Of a stretch of DNA of 64,000 bases, positions 12,238-18,669 are shown piece after piece (within the stretch, counting starts at the first letter, position 1; each line of letters opens with the position of its first letter). Below the pieces are notes generated by a model that made no database searches, was not told where the DNA came from, and was given only the letters and a program-made list of their open reading frames with translations. The position numbers were made by a program, and so were the translations under genes. This stretch comes from Chloroflexota bacterium. Its GTDB lineage: Bacteria; Chloroflexota; Limnocylindria; P2-11E. The stretch spans positions 106,893-170,892 of the forward strand of contig VBDU01000073.1 of the NCBI GenBank assembly GCA_005883625.1, given 5' to 3'.

Positions 12238-13191
12238 TCACAGCTCCTTCTGATACATGATCCACACCGGCTGCTTCTCGAACCCCAGCACTTCGTTGAT
12301 CGCGAGCATCGGCCGGTTGCGCGAATCGTTCCAGGTCTTGATGTGGTCTGCGCCCTGCCGCTGCGCGTAGCGGACCGTCTGGAGCTTTAGCGCCATCGCG
12401 ATTCCCTTGCCGCGCGCGTCGCGCAGGACCCCGGTGAGCTGGTGCCAGAAGAAGGATGGATCTTCCGTCGAGCGCGACATGTTCGACACGCCGACGTACC
12501 GGCCGTCATGGTCGATCGCCATGAAGTACGCCTCCGGCAGCGCCCCCGGTCCCTCGAGGATCAGAGCGCGCCAGGTCTCGAACGGCACCATGGTCGGCGG
12601 GTCGATCGAGGGGACGTCCTCGCTGCACAGCCGGGCGAGCTCGTAAGCCTTCTGGAGCGCGCCGGCGTCGCGGGCCATCTCCTCGCCGAGCGTCGTGATC
12701 CGAATGCCCTCGCGCGCGATGCGCTCGTCGGCGGTCGCGAATCGCGAGAAGTCGAAGTCCTTCACCTTGAGGCGCGATTCCCAGTCGCGCTTCACCTCCC
12801 GGAAGCCACGCCGTTCGAGGAAGCGCACGCCGTCGGCCATTGACTCTTTCGCCCCGGCGTTGAGCGCGCTCGCGACGCGGTCGCGGGCGATGGCAACCGC
12901 CGCGTCGTAGAGCGCGGAGCCATGGCCGCGCCGGCGATGGTCCGGATGCACCGCGACATCGAGCCAGTACTTGTCCGGAACGAATGTCCAGCGTTCGTGC
13001 TGGAGCTCGGCGGCTCCGACAAGCCGGCCGCGGTCTTCCGCGACCAGGCGCGCTTTGAAGTACCTCGCGCCGTCCCAGGTGCTGTCGTCGTGCTTCGCTT
13101 CGTCGACCGTCCGCCCGTAGTCGGGATAGGAGGCGTTCGCGACCTCGACGTAGGCCGCGTAGTCGGACGGCGCGAACGGGCGGACGCTCAT
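12238..13191 (-). CDS. GNAT family N-acetyltransferase, tandem domains
   Basis: The 317-residue product carries two acetyltransferase domains. The first (1-150) has the acetyl-CoA loop VHPDHRRRGHGSALYDAA; the second (about 170-317) has TGVLRDARGKGIAMALKLQT and ends with WNDSRNRPMLAINEVLGFEK, a common GNAT C-terminal pattern. It probably acetylates a small molecule or peptide; the substrate cannot be told. The ATG at 13191 overlaps the rnhB stop as ATGA, so it is coupled to rnhB and is an accessory insertion into the conserved rnhB-yraN cluster. Confidence 0.88.
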   Translation of the reverse strand: MSVRPFAPSDYAAYVEVANASYPDYGRTVDEAKHDDSTWDGARYFKARLVAEDRGRLVGAAELQHERWTFVPDKYWLDVAVHPDHRRRGHGSALYDAAVAIARDRVASALNAGAKESMADGVRFLERRGFREVKRDWESRLKVKDFDFSRFATADERIAREGIRITTLGEEMARDAGALQKAYELARLCSEDVPSIDPPTMVPFETWRALILEGPGALPEAYFMAIDHDGRYVGVSNMSRSTEDPSFFWHQLTGVLRDARGKGIAMALKLQTVRYAQRQGADHIKTWNDSRNRPMLAINEVLGFEKQPVWIMYQKEL

Positions 13192-13862
13192 TGCCCGACC
13201 TCCGCCGTCGCGAGACCGGCGCCCTCGAGCTCGAGCGAGATCTGCTCCGCCGACAGCATCATCCTCACGGTCCCGAAGTCCTGGCGATGGAACGGGGTCA
13301 CGCCGAGCTCGCGGAGGGCCTTGCGGTGGTCGATCGTCGGGTAGCCGCAGTTGTGCTCCCATCCGTAGCCCGGGTACTTCTCCGCGAGCTTCGCCATGAG
13401 GCGATCGCGCGTCACCTTCGCGACGATCGACGCGGCAGCGATGGCGAACGACTTCGCGTCGCCGCGCACGATCTCGGTGTGACGCCCCGGCGCGAACGCC
13501 GGATCGAGGATCCGGCGCCCGTCCACGAGGACCCAGTCGTACTCGCCGATCTGGCGCAAAGCGCGGAGCATCGCGACGTGGCTCGCGTGATAGATGTTGA
13601 GCCGGTGGATCTCGGCGACAGAGGCCGCCCCGATGCCGACCTTCATCACCCGCCCGCGGATCCGCGAGATGAGGTCCTCACGCTGGAGCCGCGTGAGCAC
13701 CTTCGAGTCGTTCACCTTGCGGATGAGCCTCGTATCCGGCGTCACCAGGCACGCGGCGGCGACGACAGGACCGGCGAGTGCGGCCATGCCGACCTCGTCG
13801 ACGCCGACGACACGGAGAAGCCCTTGCGACCACAGTCGCTTCTCGTGGTTGAGGGAAGGCAT
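13188..13862 (-). CDS. rnhB: Ribonuclease HII
   Basis: A 224-residue RNase HII, which nicks 5' of ribonucleotides embedded in DNA. The catalytic acidic residues are visible: Asp and Glu in GVDEVG near residue 21, Asp in WVLVDGRR near 108-112, and Asp in KVTRDRLM. NDSK, SFAIAAASIVAKVTRD and PGYGWEHNCGYPT are family hallmarks. The substrate-recognition motif usually written GRG reads GMA here (GVDEVGMAALAGPV), unlike most bacterial enzymes. It lies between rplS and the GNAT gene in the same direction. Confidence 0.92.
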   Translation of the reverse strand: MPSLNHEKRLWSQGLLRVVGVDEVGMAALAGPVVAAACLVTPDTRLIRKVNDSKVLTRLQREDLISRIRGRVMKVGIGAASVAEIHRLNIYHASHVAMLRALRQIGEYDWVLVDGRRILDPAFAPGRHTEIVRGDAKSFAIAAASIVAKVTRDRLMAKLAEKYPGYGWEHNCGYPTIDHRKALRELGVTPFHRQDFGTVRMMLSAEQISLELEGAGLATAEVGQ

Positions 13863-14293: not shown

Positions 14294-14347
14294 GGAGTCG
14301 ATCGATAGTAGCAGCAGTCGAGGGAGCGCTGCCCCCTCGGACCCCCG

Positions 14348-15349
14348 TCAGCGCTTCGCCTTCTTCAAGCGATCGAGGATCGTCACGTGCGAGACGCCGA
14401 AATGCCGGGCGAGCTCGCGCACCGTGAGCCCCGTCGCGCGCATCCGCGTCACCTCGGCGACCGTCGGGCCGCGCTGCGATGCGCGTGAGGGCCGCAGGCG
14501 AACCCCCGCGGCCCGCAGCCGCGAGCGGACCGTCGCGGGCGAGATGCCGAAGCGCGACGCGATGCGGTACGAGCCGACGCCGGACTGATATGCGGACATG
14601 AGGTCCTCATCGCGTACGCGGCCGCGCGGACCGGGACGCGGCAGGCGCGCACGCTCGCTCGGCGTGAGCGCCGCTCGGTCAAGGAGCTCCGGACGGCGCT
14701 CGGCGGTCCTCCGGATCGCCTCGCCGCGGCGCCAGCGCTCGATCATCGCGTGGTCCCCCGACAGCAGGACGCTCGGCACGCGTTTGCCCTCGTGCTCGAC
14801 GGGCCGCGTGTACTGCGGGCCCTCGAGAAGCCCGCCGGTGTGGGACTCCTGCGCGAGCGACTCGGGCTCGATGACGCCCGGCACCAGGCGCGTGACCGCG
14901 TCGACCACGACCATCGCCGCGAGCTCGCCACCCGTGAGCACGAAGTCGCCGATCGAGAGCTCTTCGTCGACGTCCCGCTCGATGACCCGCTCGTCCACGC
15001 CTTCGTAGTGCCCGCACACGAGCACGAGATGGGGAACGCGGGCGAGCCGGTGCGCGGCGGCCTGATCAAAGAGGCGGCCCTGCGCGGTCATGAGTACGAC
15101 GTACCCCGCGTTCCCCTTGGTCTCGCGGATCGCGCGCGTGAGCGGCTCGGGCTTGAGCACCATGCCGGCGCCGCCTCCATAGGGCGCGTCGTCGACGACG
15201 CGATGGCGGTCCGTCGCCCACTCGCGCAGGTCGTGCACCGCGAGATCGAGCTGTCCCGCGGTCCGCGCACGGGCGACGATGCTCTCGGCGAACGGGCTTT
15301 CGAACATCTTCGGGAAGAGCGTGAGGACGTCGATACGCAGCGCGCTCAC
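14348..15349 (-). CDS. trmD: tRNA (guanine37-N1)-methyltransferase fused to two helix-turn-helix domains
   Basis: Residues 1-240 are TrmD, which methylates G37 next to the anticodon and prevents frameshifting. The trefoil-knot SPOUT core is clear: [59 protein letters not shown] and [16 protein letters not shown]. The frame continues without a stop for another 90 residues, which is unusual because TrmD normally ends near 250. The tail holds two resolvase-like helix-turn-helix units: [19 protein letters not shown] (about 260-280) and [20 protein letters not shown] (about 309-328). The GTG start overlaps the rimM stop (GTGA). Confidence 0.92.
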
Positions 15350-15873
15350 GGCAGCACGTCCTGCGGGACGACGACGACGCGGCCCGCGGCGAGATCGACC
15401 ACGCGTACGACGGACGCGAGCGCCGGAAGCAGCACCTCGGCGCGCGTTCCCTCGTCGCGCACGACGAGCACGTCGGTCTCTCCGGCGCGCAGGATCTCGC
15501 GGACGATGCCAAGGCGCGTCCCGTCCGGCGTCTCGGCGACGAGCCCGAGCAGGTCCGCCCAGAGGTACGCCCCCTTCGCGGCCTTGCGCGCGGCCTCGCG
15601 CGTGATGTGCAGCACGCGGCCGCGGAGGCGATCCGCGTCGGAGCGGCTCTCGTAGCCGTCGAACCGGACGATCGGGACGTTCGCCGGGCCGCGGACCGAG
15701 GCGATGAGCAGCTCGCCAACGCCCTCGCACTGCAGACGGGCGCCCGGGCGAAAGCGCTCCGCGACGTCGGTCCGGGACTCCACCTTCACCTCGCCCCGCA
15801 TACCGTGCGGCGCGCGAACGAATCCGACGACGACGTCGTCGCTAATCGATCTCGAGGTTGACCTTGGTCCCAT
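15346..15873 (-). CDS. rimM: Ribosome maturation factor RimM
   Basis: RimM binds S19 and assists 30S head assembly. The N-terminal barrel [20 protein letters not shown] and the PRC-barrel region [18 protein letters not shown]...LGIVREI and [15 protein letters not shown] are present. The start is uncertain. Homology begins at VVVGFV, right after the khpA stop, but no ATG, GTG or TTG lies there. The nearest in-frame ATG is at 15873, which gives 175 residues and a 32-nt overlap with khpA. An ATT touching the khpA TAG stop is another candidate. The stop overlaps trmD. Confidence 0.88.
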
Positions 15874-16102
15874 CGCGCGTCGCCATGACCTTGAGGAGCG
15901 CCCGGATCGCCTTCGCGATCCGGCCGCCACGACCGATGACCTTCCCGACGTCCGCCTCGGCGACCTGGAGGTGGAGCTTCGTGAAGTCGCCGTCCTGCTC
16001 CTCGCTGACGACGACCTGCGAGGGATCGTCGACGAGGGCGCGCGCGACGTGCTCGAGGAGTGCGCGCATTTTGCCCGGCTGCGGAGCCGCCTCCGACGTC
16101 AT
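15842..16102 (-). CDS. khpA: KH domain RNA-binding protein KhpA
   Basis: An 86-residue single-KH protein. The GxxG RNA-binding loop is VGKVIGRGGRIAKAIR near residues 53-68, with LEHVARALVDDPSQV at the N-terminus. KhpA usually lies between rpsP and rimM, as it does here, and in Firmicutes it acts with KhpB/Jag as an RNA chaperone affecting cell shape and division. The start overlaps the rpsP stop (ATGA). Confidence 0.92.
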   Translation of the reverse strand: MTSEAAPQPGKMRALLEHVARALVDDPSQVVVSEEQDGDFTKLHLQVAEADVGKVIGRGGRIAKAIRALLKVMATRDGTKVNLEID

Positions 16103-16368
16103 CGAGCCGCTTTCGGGACCTCGTTATCCGGGATGCCGCTCCGGACGAGGAGCGAGCGTGCGGTCGCCGTCGGCCGGGCGCCGCTCTTGATCCAGTGGCG
16201 GGCGCGGTCGCCGTTCACCACGAGCCTGGCCGGCTCGCTGCGCGGGTCGTAGTGGCCGATCGACTCGATGAACCTGCCGTTCCGCGGCGACCGCGAGTCG
16301 GCGACGATGACGCGATACGTGGGCGCCTTCGTCTTCCCGACGCGGCGCAGACGGATGTGCACGGCCAA
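16099..16368 (-). CDS. rpsP: 30S ribosomal protein S16
   Basis: An 89-residue S16. The family signature AVHIRLRRVGKTKAPTYRVI is at the N-terminus, followed by ADSRSPRNGRFIESIGHYDP. The start is a TTG at 16368 with an AGGAGG ten bases upstream, which decides in favour of TTG over the GTG two codons later. It heads the tightly overlapped rpsP-khpA-rimM-trmD operon; the 82-bp gap to ffh probably holds a promoter, though no clear hexamers are seen. Confidence 0.95.
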   Translation of the reverse strand: MAVHIRLRRVGKTKAPTYRVIVADSRSPRNGRFIESIGHYDPRSEPARLVVNGDRARHWIKSGARPTATARSLLVRSGIPDNEVPKAAR

Positions 16369-16450: not shown

Positions 16451-17806
16451 TCAGCGCGGCATCCCCGGCATTCTTGGCATTCCCGGAAGCCGCGGGAGCC
16501 GGCCGCTCTTGGCGAGCGCGCCCATCTGCTTCATCAGCTTCTTCATCTCGCCGAACTGCTTGATGAGCGCATTCACGTCCGAGACGGTGGTCCCCGACCC
16601 CGCCGCGATCCGCCGGCGCCGCGAGCCGTTGATGATCGTGGGGTCGCCGCGCTCGGCGCGCGTCATCGACGAGATGATCGCCTCGATCCGTCTGAGCTCG
16701 CGCTCCGCCTCGGGGCCTTCCGGGAGCTGCTTCGCGACTCCGCCGAGGCCCGGGATCATCTTCAGGATGTCGCCGAGCGGGCCCATCTTCTTCACCTGCT
16801 GCAGCTGCGCGTAGAAGTCGTCGAATGTGAAGCTCGCGTCGAGGAGCTTGCGCGCCTGCGCCTCCGCCGTCTGCTGGTCGACCGTCTCCTGCGCCCGCTC
16901 GACGAGGGTGAGGATGTCCCCCATCCCGAGGATGCGCTGCGCGAGACGGTCGGGATGGAAGACCTCGATGGCGTCGAGCTTCTCGCCGGTGCCGATGAGC
17001 TTCACCGGGACGCCGGTCACGGCGCGCACCGACAGCGATGCGCCGCCGCGCGCGTCGCCGTCGGCCTTCGCGAGCACGAGGCCGGTGAGCGGCAGTCGCG
17101 CGTGGAAGGCCGTCGCCGCGTCGACCGCGTCCTGTCCCGCCATGGCATCGACCACGAGGAGGACCTCGTGCGGCTTCGTCGTGGCGACCACGCGCTCGAT
17201 CTCCGTCATCATCGCTTCGTCGATGTGGAGCCGCCCCGCGGTGTCCACGATGACGGTGTCGCTCCCCTCGCTCGCGGCGCTCGCGGCGATCGCCGCGGCG
17301 TCCTCGGCGACCCGCGAGGCGTCGACCGCCTTCACCGGAACGCCGAGCTGCTTTCCCAGCGTGACGAGCTGATCGATCGCAGCCGGCCGGTGCACGTCCG
17401 CCGCGACGAGGAGCGGGCGGCGTCCCTGCTTGCGCAGGAGGTTCGCGAGCTTTGCCGCGGTCGTCGTCTTCCCGGACCCTTGCAGGCCCGCGAGCACGAC
17501 GACCGTGGGCGGTCGCTCGGCGCGCACGAGCGGCGTGGCCTCGCTGCCGAGCATCTCGACGAGCGCGTCGTGGACGATCTTCACGACCTGCTGCGCGCCG
17601 GTGATCGACTCGAGCACCTTCGCGCCGAGCGCGCGCTCCCGGACCGTCGCGACGAGCTGACGGACGACCTTGAAGTTCACGTCCGCTTCGAGCAGCGCGA
17701 CGCGGACGTCGCGGAGCGCCTCCTCGAGATCCGCCTCCGTGACGCGCGGGCGCCCGCGGAGGCGCTCGAACGTGACGGTCAGCTTGTCGGAGAGCTGCTC
17801 GAACAT
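16451..17806 (-). CDS. ffh: Signal recognition particle protein Ffh
   Basis: The 451-residue GTPase binds signal peptides on the ribosome and delivers them to FtsY. The N domain is followed by the G domain with VVVLAGLQGSGKTTTAAKLA (P-loop near residue 104), DTAGRLHIDEAMM, VVDAMAGQDAVD and LAKADGDARGG. The C-terminal M domain carries methionine-rich stretches (MGPLGDILKMIPGLGG) and ends in repeated LPGMPRMPGMPR. It lies downstream of the EAL gene and ftsY in the same direction. Confidence 0.97.
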   Translation of the reverse strand: MFEQLSDKLTVTFERLRGRPRVTEADLEEALRDVRVALLEADVNFKVVRQLVATVRERALGAKVLESITGAQQVVKIVHDALVEMLGSEATPLVRAERPPTVVVLAGLQGSGKTTTAAKLANLLRKQGRRPLLVAADVHRPAAIDQLVTLGKQLGVPVKAVDASRVAEDAAAIAASAASEGSDTVIVDTAGRLHIDEAMMTEIERVVATTKPHEVLLVVDAMAGQDAVDAATAFHARLPLTGLVLAKADGDARGGASLSVRAVTGVPVKLIGTGEKLDAIEVFHPDRLAQRILGMGDILTLVERAQETVDQQTAEAQARKLLDASFTFDDFYAQLQQVKKMGPLGDILKMIPGLGGVAKQLPEGPEAERELRRIEAIISSMTRAERGDPTIINGSRRRRIAAGSGTTVSDVNALIKQFGEMKKLMKQMGALAKSGRLPRLPGMPRMPGMPR

Positions 17807-17910: not shown

Positions 17911-18669
17911 TCACGCGTCCTTCTGCCGCGAGAGGAGCGTGCGGAGCTCGCCGGGCGCGACCTCGGGGCCGTAGAGGTAGCCCTGCACGATCTCCACGCC
18001 GAGGCCGTGCAGGGCCGCTTCCTGCTCGGGCGTCTCGACGGAATCGGCGACGACGCGGGCGCCCGTCGATCGGGAGGCCCCGACGACCGCCTTGATGGCG
18101 TTCGCGTTCTTGAAGACCTCCTTCGAGACGGGAAACGGGACCTTCTGCGTGTCGAAGGTGAGGTTCGCAGGCGCCCGCGAGCCGAAGATGAGCTCCTCCG
18201 AGGCGAGGCGCACGCCGAGCGCGCGGATCGCCACGAGCCGTTCGACCAGCGCGGAGTCGGAGAGGGACCCGCGCGGCGTCTCGAGCTCGATCCAGCGGGG
18301 ATCGACGCCGGTCTCGGCAAGACCGCGGAAGACGACGTCGACCGCGTCCGGCCGCTGGAGTGTGCGGCCCCAGATGTTCGTCGCGACCAACGGGACCTCG
18401 ACGCCGTCCTCGCGCCACTTCATGAGCTGCGCGCACGCCGCGCGCACGACCCAGCGATCGAACTCCGCGTGGAGGCCGCCCTTCTCGACGAGCGGGATGA
18501 TCTCCGAGGGCCCGATCAGCCCGTAGATCGGGTGAGGCCAGCGCACGAACGCCTCGACGCCCTGGAGCGTCCCGTCCGCCACCCGGACCTGCGGCTGGAA
18601 GTGCAGCGTCAGGAAGCTGCTCTCGATCGTCCGCTTCAGATCGGCGGGACGAAGCTGGAGTGTGGCCAT
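17911..18669 (-). CDS. Degenerate EAL domain protein
   Basis: A 252-residue EAL-type domain without other domains. LTLHFQPQVRVADGTLQGVE and FVRWPHPIYGLIGPSEIIPL fit the family, as do ATNIWGRTLQ and QGYLYGPEV at the end. Catalytic positions are altered: EAL reads EAF, the metal-binding DDFGTG loop reads SEELIFG, and the KID region reads KVPFP. Loss of cyclic-di-GMP phosphodiesterase activity is likely, so it may act as a binding or signalling module. Its ATG overlaps the ftsY stop by one base, so it is expressed within the ftsY-ffh operon. Confidence 0.85.
   Translation of the reverse strand: MATLQLRPADLKRTIESSFLTLHFQPQVRVADGTLQGVEAFVRWPHPIYGLIGPSEIIPLVEKGGLHAEFDRWVVRAACAQLMKWREDGVEVPLVATNIWGRTLQRPDAVDVVFRGLAETGVDPRWIELETPRGSLSDSALVERLVAIRALGVRLASEELIFGSRAPANLTFDTQKVPFPVSKEVFKNANAIKAVVGASRSTGARVVADSVETPEQEAALHGLGVEIVQGYLYGPEVAPGELRTLLSRQKDA

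Follow-up and report, generated by a model that had tools for sequence, protein, structure and literature searches.

TrmD is fused, throughout one order of uncultured Chloroflexota bacteria, to a C-terminal tail of two helix-turn-helix (HTH) units, and the fusion is genuine and fixed in that order. The gene lies on the minus strand at 14348..15349 of the window, by which we mean the whole 64,000-nucleotide stretch of DNA analysed. Its frame, read from 15349 to 14348, contains 333 codons free of stops; it starts with a GTG and overlaps the last codons of rimM by 4 nt. Could the length of this frame be an artefact? We scanned 177 genomes of the class. Of the 29 that belong to the order of the window, 28 have the tail, and in the remaining one (G003) TrmD is cut off by a contig end; the tail is absent from all 148 genomes of other orders. 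A separate scan of named genomes located 26 loci matching most of the tail, all titled as Chloroflexi or Chloroflexota MAGs, with groundwater, lake and soil-depth samples among the titles. At L018 and L020 seemingly tailless halves of TrmD lie at contig ends; in both genomes the tail is found at the start of a separate contig. The original prediction of a fusion was exposed to two objections, a sequencing error that had removed a stop near codon 245 and a fusion confined to a single genome. With the tail present in 28 genomes and at 26 loci from named records, sequencing error is ruled out and neither objection holds.

The tail occurs in one copy per genome, always attached to the sole TrmD, and the window's own genome contains no paralogue of it elsewhere (E ≤ 0.1). 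In a tree of TrmD cores, computed without the tail, all tailed proteins fall in one clade (support 100/99), the deepest branch of which is family f2 (G028), while the TrmDs of the sister families f3, f4 and f5 are tailless. A single clade implies one origin of the fusion, no later than the base of the order. We propose that TrmD gained the tandem HTH module at its C terminus in one such event, and that the fused protein would then have replaced the plain enzyme. Two further candidates were set aside. Separate translation of the tail from an internal start was rejected, the only ATG at the start of the tail (M251) not being conserved, and so was an origin from a mobile element, for which a scan of phages and plasmids gave weak matches in one phage and one plasmid.

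Is the enzyme itself complete? Profile matches, alignment to PDB structures and alignment of the family place the SPOUT catalytic and C-terminal domains at residues 4–222 (14684..15340, minus strand). Residues 5–226 match two trmD equivalog models, TIGR00088 at 290 bits (cut-off 195) and PRK00026 at 305 bits (cut-off 220), so that the complete TrmD originally claimed is borne out; the alignment to TrmDs in the PDB extends to residue 237. Three active-site residues, E116, R154 and D169, have been named for TrmD (PMC1829167), and E116 and R154 are invariant in our alignment. The D169 position is occupied by Glu (E168, window 14846–14848) in the whole tailed order (alignment of L100–L125), by Glu also in sister families f3 and f5, and by Asp in f4. 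E168 is a natural variant of TrmD Asp169, a general base reported to be necessary for activity. Since the one TrmD found in this genome is the tailed one, the fusion is expected to carry out m1G37 methylation and is probably catalytically active.

The core is followed by a fast-evolving linker, residues 223–246 (14612..14683, minus strand), recognized from the alignment and from its pN/pS, and almost missing from the f2 homologue (alignment, L125). The first HTH unit comprises residues 247–284 (14498..14611) and the second residues 297–333 (14351..14461), both on the minus strand. Pfam matches, AlphaFold2 helices and invariant recognition-helix residues define the first; the second is defined by HTH_10 and HTH_7 matches in Pfam, by AlphaFold2 helices and by an invariant SHVTI..R motif.

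What is the fold of the tail? Scanned alone, it scores above the Pfam gathering cut-offs of HTH_10 (32.9 against 23.1), HTH_38 (31.4 against 27), HTH_23 (29.9 against 24.6) and the resolvase family HTH_7 (27.4 against 23.8). AlphaFold2, given the tail alone, predicts two three-helix HTH units (helices 3–11, 16–23, 27–36 and 53–61, 66–73, 77–88) with a mean pLDDT of 87.6, the joint between them being less certain. Profile match and prediction agree on the two trihelical units of a tandem HTH module; on these grounds the HTH fold of the tail is shown, and the two-HTH tail of the original prediction stands. The model of the full-length fusion is of moderate quality (pLDDT 74.9, pTM 0.51), and for that reason we make no claim as to where the tail sits relative to the tRNA. 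The best Foldseek match to the tail is 2lvs, a CRISPR-repeat-binding protein (E 0.045, TM about 0.35), followed by Mu Mor (1rr7), mariner-type DNA-binding domains and response regulators. Tn3 resolvase and a γδ/Hin chimaera are also matched, a single HTH superposing at 0.7–1.0 Å. Together with the HTH_7 match, these structures uphold the predicted likeness to resolvase/Hin and Mor proteins. Foldseek returned no solved structure that confidently matches the whole two-HTH arrangement (the E value of 2lvs being the best), and the scores for the tail as a whole are weak, probably reflecting two units whose position with respect to each other is not fixed.

To which family, then, might the tail belong? 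The protein of the top structural match, Cbp1, also carries tandem HTHs in one chain. It is, however, a free-standing archaeal protein, and the tail alone reaches 25.0 bits over both HTHs against the Cbp1 equivalog NF040595, far under its cut-off of 140. The second HTH, on scanning of the tail alone, exceeds the HTH_7 cut-off of the resolvase/Hin family (PF02796), but a serine recombinase needs an N-terminal resolvase catalytic domain, and the N-terminal part of the fusion is TrmD. The tail differs from the resolvase/Hin HTH and from Mu Mor in having two HTHs in tandem. We claim no membership of the tail in the Cbp1, Mor, mariner-type, response-regulator or resolvase families. In sequence, the nearest relatives found for it elsewhere in the phylum are double-HTH proteins of some 105 residues that stand alone. 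They align over both HTHs and most of the tail, the best of them with 49 bits and an E of 1.8e-12. Three such genes were located in another Chloroflexota family, at L127 (1471–1779), L128 (1444–1758) and L130 (1414–1770). Each has a gene for a large protein with a membrane segment before or after it and mostly an adjoining gene of the XRE-type HTH kind. Unlike the tail, these proteins are not fused to TrmD, and the flanking DNA examined contains no trmD.

The genes around trmD keep the same order, ffh–rpsP–KH–rimM–trmD–rplS–rnhB, in the genomes of the order that were compared. From this comparison of gene order we assigned, all on the minus strand, the upstream partner ffh (16451..17806) and the operon partners rpsP (S16, 16099..16368), a KH-domain protein of YlqC type (15842..16102), rimM (15346..15930), rplS (L19, 13925..14293) and rnhB (13188..13862). 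In the trmD–rplS gap (14294..14347, minus strand) comparison of upstream regions revealed an extended −10 box, TGCTACTAT, some 20 nt ahead of the GTG of rplS. Just upstream of ffh lies an open reading frame of 252 aa (window 17911–18669) that is EAL-domain-like by eye, and a reading frame resembling it seems to precede ffh in some relatives. Does the operon contain a site for the tail? In the upstream regions of ffh, rpsP and rplS, compared in up to 22 species, we found no operator-like word, just the RBS and the −10 box being conserved, although this is a weak test that short or degenerate sites could escape. Promoter positions vary among species. In five species (four of genus g8, plus L111) ffh and rpsP are separated by a very short gap or by none, so that there is little space for an internal promoter and operator. 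An operator inside the tail was considered and rejected: synonymous-site constraint rises slightly over residues 289–324, but no higher than at the start of the gene.

How is rplS preceded where TrmD lacks the tail? In sister families f3 and f4 it has its own TGCTATACT-like box and then a leader of about 75–125 nt, which in f4 contains a pair of conserved hairpins, of which the second shows compensatory changes. As a candidate L19 5' leader it has a conserved CGCGGCCGC...GCGGTCGCG hairpin right after the −10 box and a second, covarying one before the RBS; it was noted in the trmD–rplS gap of L005, L008, L010, L021, L022, L040 and other loci. A known RNA leader at rplS was rejected, no Rfam family having matched in 18 loci. 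In the tailed order the structured leader is absent, and a TGnTAnnnT box, shared by most of the order, stands some 20 nt ahead of rplS. An extended −10 box at such a short distance from the GTG suggests that the rplS mRNA of the tailed order may be leaderless. The coincidence of leader loss with tail gain is suggestive, but since each is a single event it is a lead and not evidence. In f5 the rplS leader is also shortened, yet TrmD has no tail.

Is the tail a working part of the protein? Over 23 species with a synonymous difference of about 50%, the catalytic core has a pN/pS of 0.29 and the tail one of 0.30 (HTH1 0.23, HTH2 0.31), against 0.63 for the linker. Core and tail are under the same purifying selection, while the linker is relaxed. 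In the recognition helix of HTH1 the residues S270, T273, V274, R275 and R277 are invariant across the 23 species, and in that of HTH2 so are S320, H321, V322, T323, I324 and R327; the turn glycines of the tail are likewise invariant. The net charge of the tail is +12 and that of the core −7. The equality of pN/pS argues that the tail works and is not a remnant. The free-standing two-HTH proteins of the phylum do offer a plausible donor gene for a fusion by read-through into a small HTH gene, but that the product should have persisted as a passive, functionless appendage is hardly credible: selection on it equals that on the enzyme across the synonymous divergence sampled, and no genome of the order examined has lost the tail or acquired a frameshift in it. 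The pN/pS values in effect refute this explanation.

What, then, might the tail bind? That it binds nucleic acid, as originally claimed, is its likely role, to judge from the HTH profile and fold matches. On balance we favour the view that the tail of an active TrmD dimer is a sequence-specific DNA-binding module. The families matched by its profiles are DNA-binding, as are the best Foldseek match and the resolvase, Mor and mariner-type matches, and the proteins related to it in the phylum are double HTHs that stand alone. No complete TrmD of the order lacks the tail, and none is accompanied by a plain TrmD. The recognition-helix residues, fixed throughout the order, are as expected for a fixed target, and the charge of the tail, a pN/pS like that of the core and the confidence of its model point the same way. 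On the other side stand the failure to find a conserved operator near the trmD operon and the lack of a confident structural match to the whole tail. HTH and winged-HTH folds can, moreover, bind RNA, and the substrate of TrmD is RNA. The tail might instead bind RNA, raising the affinity or selectivity of the enzyme for tRNA or docking it on the ribosome or on precursor tRNA, much as domains appended to synthetases and to other SPOUT enzymes do. Additional domains that bind nucleic acid are present in many SPOUT enzymes (PMC1829167), and the extra domain of TrmD–Tm1570 has been suggested to aid substrate binding (PMC11187310). A tail so basic, with no DNA operator found in the operon's upstream regions, would suit such an appendage. 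But the informative family and fold matches are to DNA-binding HTHs and to no RNA-binding family, the base-contact positions of the recognition helices are invariant, and the sister families do without the tail; we regard an RNA-binding appendage as the main alternative, possible but distinctly less probable.

If the tail binds DNA, does it act on its own operon? The original prediction envisaged control of the operon of rpsP and rplS. The tail might repress or activate ffh/rpsP–trmD–rplS or, in a variant of the idea, might have taken the place of the RNA leader found before rplS in the sister families. The place of trmD in a conserved ribosomal-protein operon, in the genomes compared, accords with this proposal, as does the disappearance from the tailed order of the leader that f3 and f4 possess behind the TGCTATACT box. 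Against it, the upstream regions of ffh, rpsP and rplS share no word beyond the RBS and the −10 box, promoter positions are not constant, several species have too short an ffh–rpsP gap, and the loss of the leader is one event, matched in f5 by a short leader without a tail. Control of its own operon is thus not supported by these comparisons, and we consider it unlikely.

How would a DNA-binding TrmD operate? TrmD is dimeric and binds one tRNA per dimer (PMC9508554), so that the fusion would present two arms with two HTHs each. With these arms recognizing a fixed DNA sequence, TrmD would have two functions, the occupation of a DNA site and the methylation of tRNA. Binding to DNA could report the state of the enzyme, of SAM or of tRNA to transcription, and such is the regulatory role that we infer for the fusion. 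A bolder proposal, which we think rather improbable, is that the TrmD of this order is a true transcription factor, a four-HTH dimer on defined DNA sites that couples m1G37 or SAM status, or translation capacity, to transcription, and that has taken over control of rplS from the ancestral RNA leader.

How does the fusion compare with other TrmDs? It shares with the free-standing enzyme, a tRNA (guanine37-N1)-methyltransferase (TIGR00088/PF01746), the complete SPOUT and C-terminal domains, the place in the operon, E116 and R154, and differs from it by about 90 extra residues with two HTHs and by Glu at the Asp169 position. Published accounts present TrmD either on its own or joined to Tm1570 (PMC1829167, PMC11187310). 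The earlier statement that TrmD is normally free-standing is right for the sister families, but the fusion to Tm1570 shows that TrmD can also occur otherwise. TrmD–Tm1570 (PF01746–PF09936) resembles the present protein in having a lineage-restricted C-terminal domain added to TrmD, but that addition is a second knotted methyltransferase, whereas here it is an HTH pair of the nucleic-acid-binding kind. PF09936 is not among the best 25 Pfam families of the window protein; HTH models account for the tail region, which is all-helical in AlphaFold2. A literature search for TrmD with HTH domains or for autoregulation of its operon found nothing relevant. We found no published case of a TrmD–HTH fusion, TrmD–Tm1570 being the known TrmD fusion.

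TrmD is nearly universal and essential, and is an antibiotic target; leaving aside the fusion to Tm1570, it is described as a short enzyme that stands alone. That an entire order carries it as a strictly selected fusion to HTH units hints at a direct physical connection, so far unstudied, of tRNA modification with gene regulation or, alternatively, at an unusual mode of tRNA capture.
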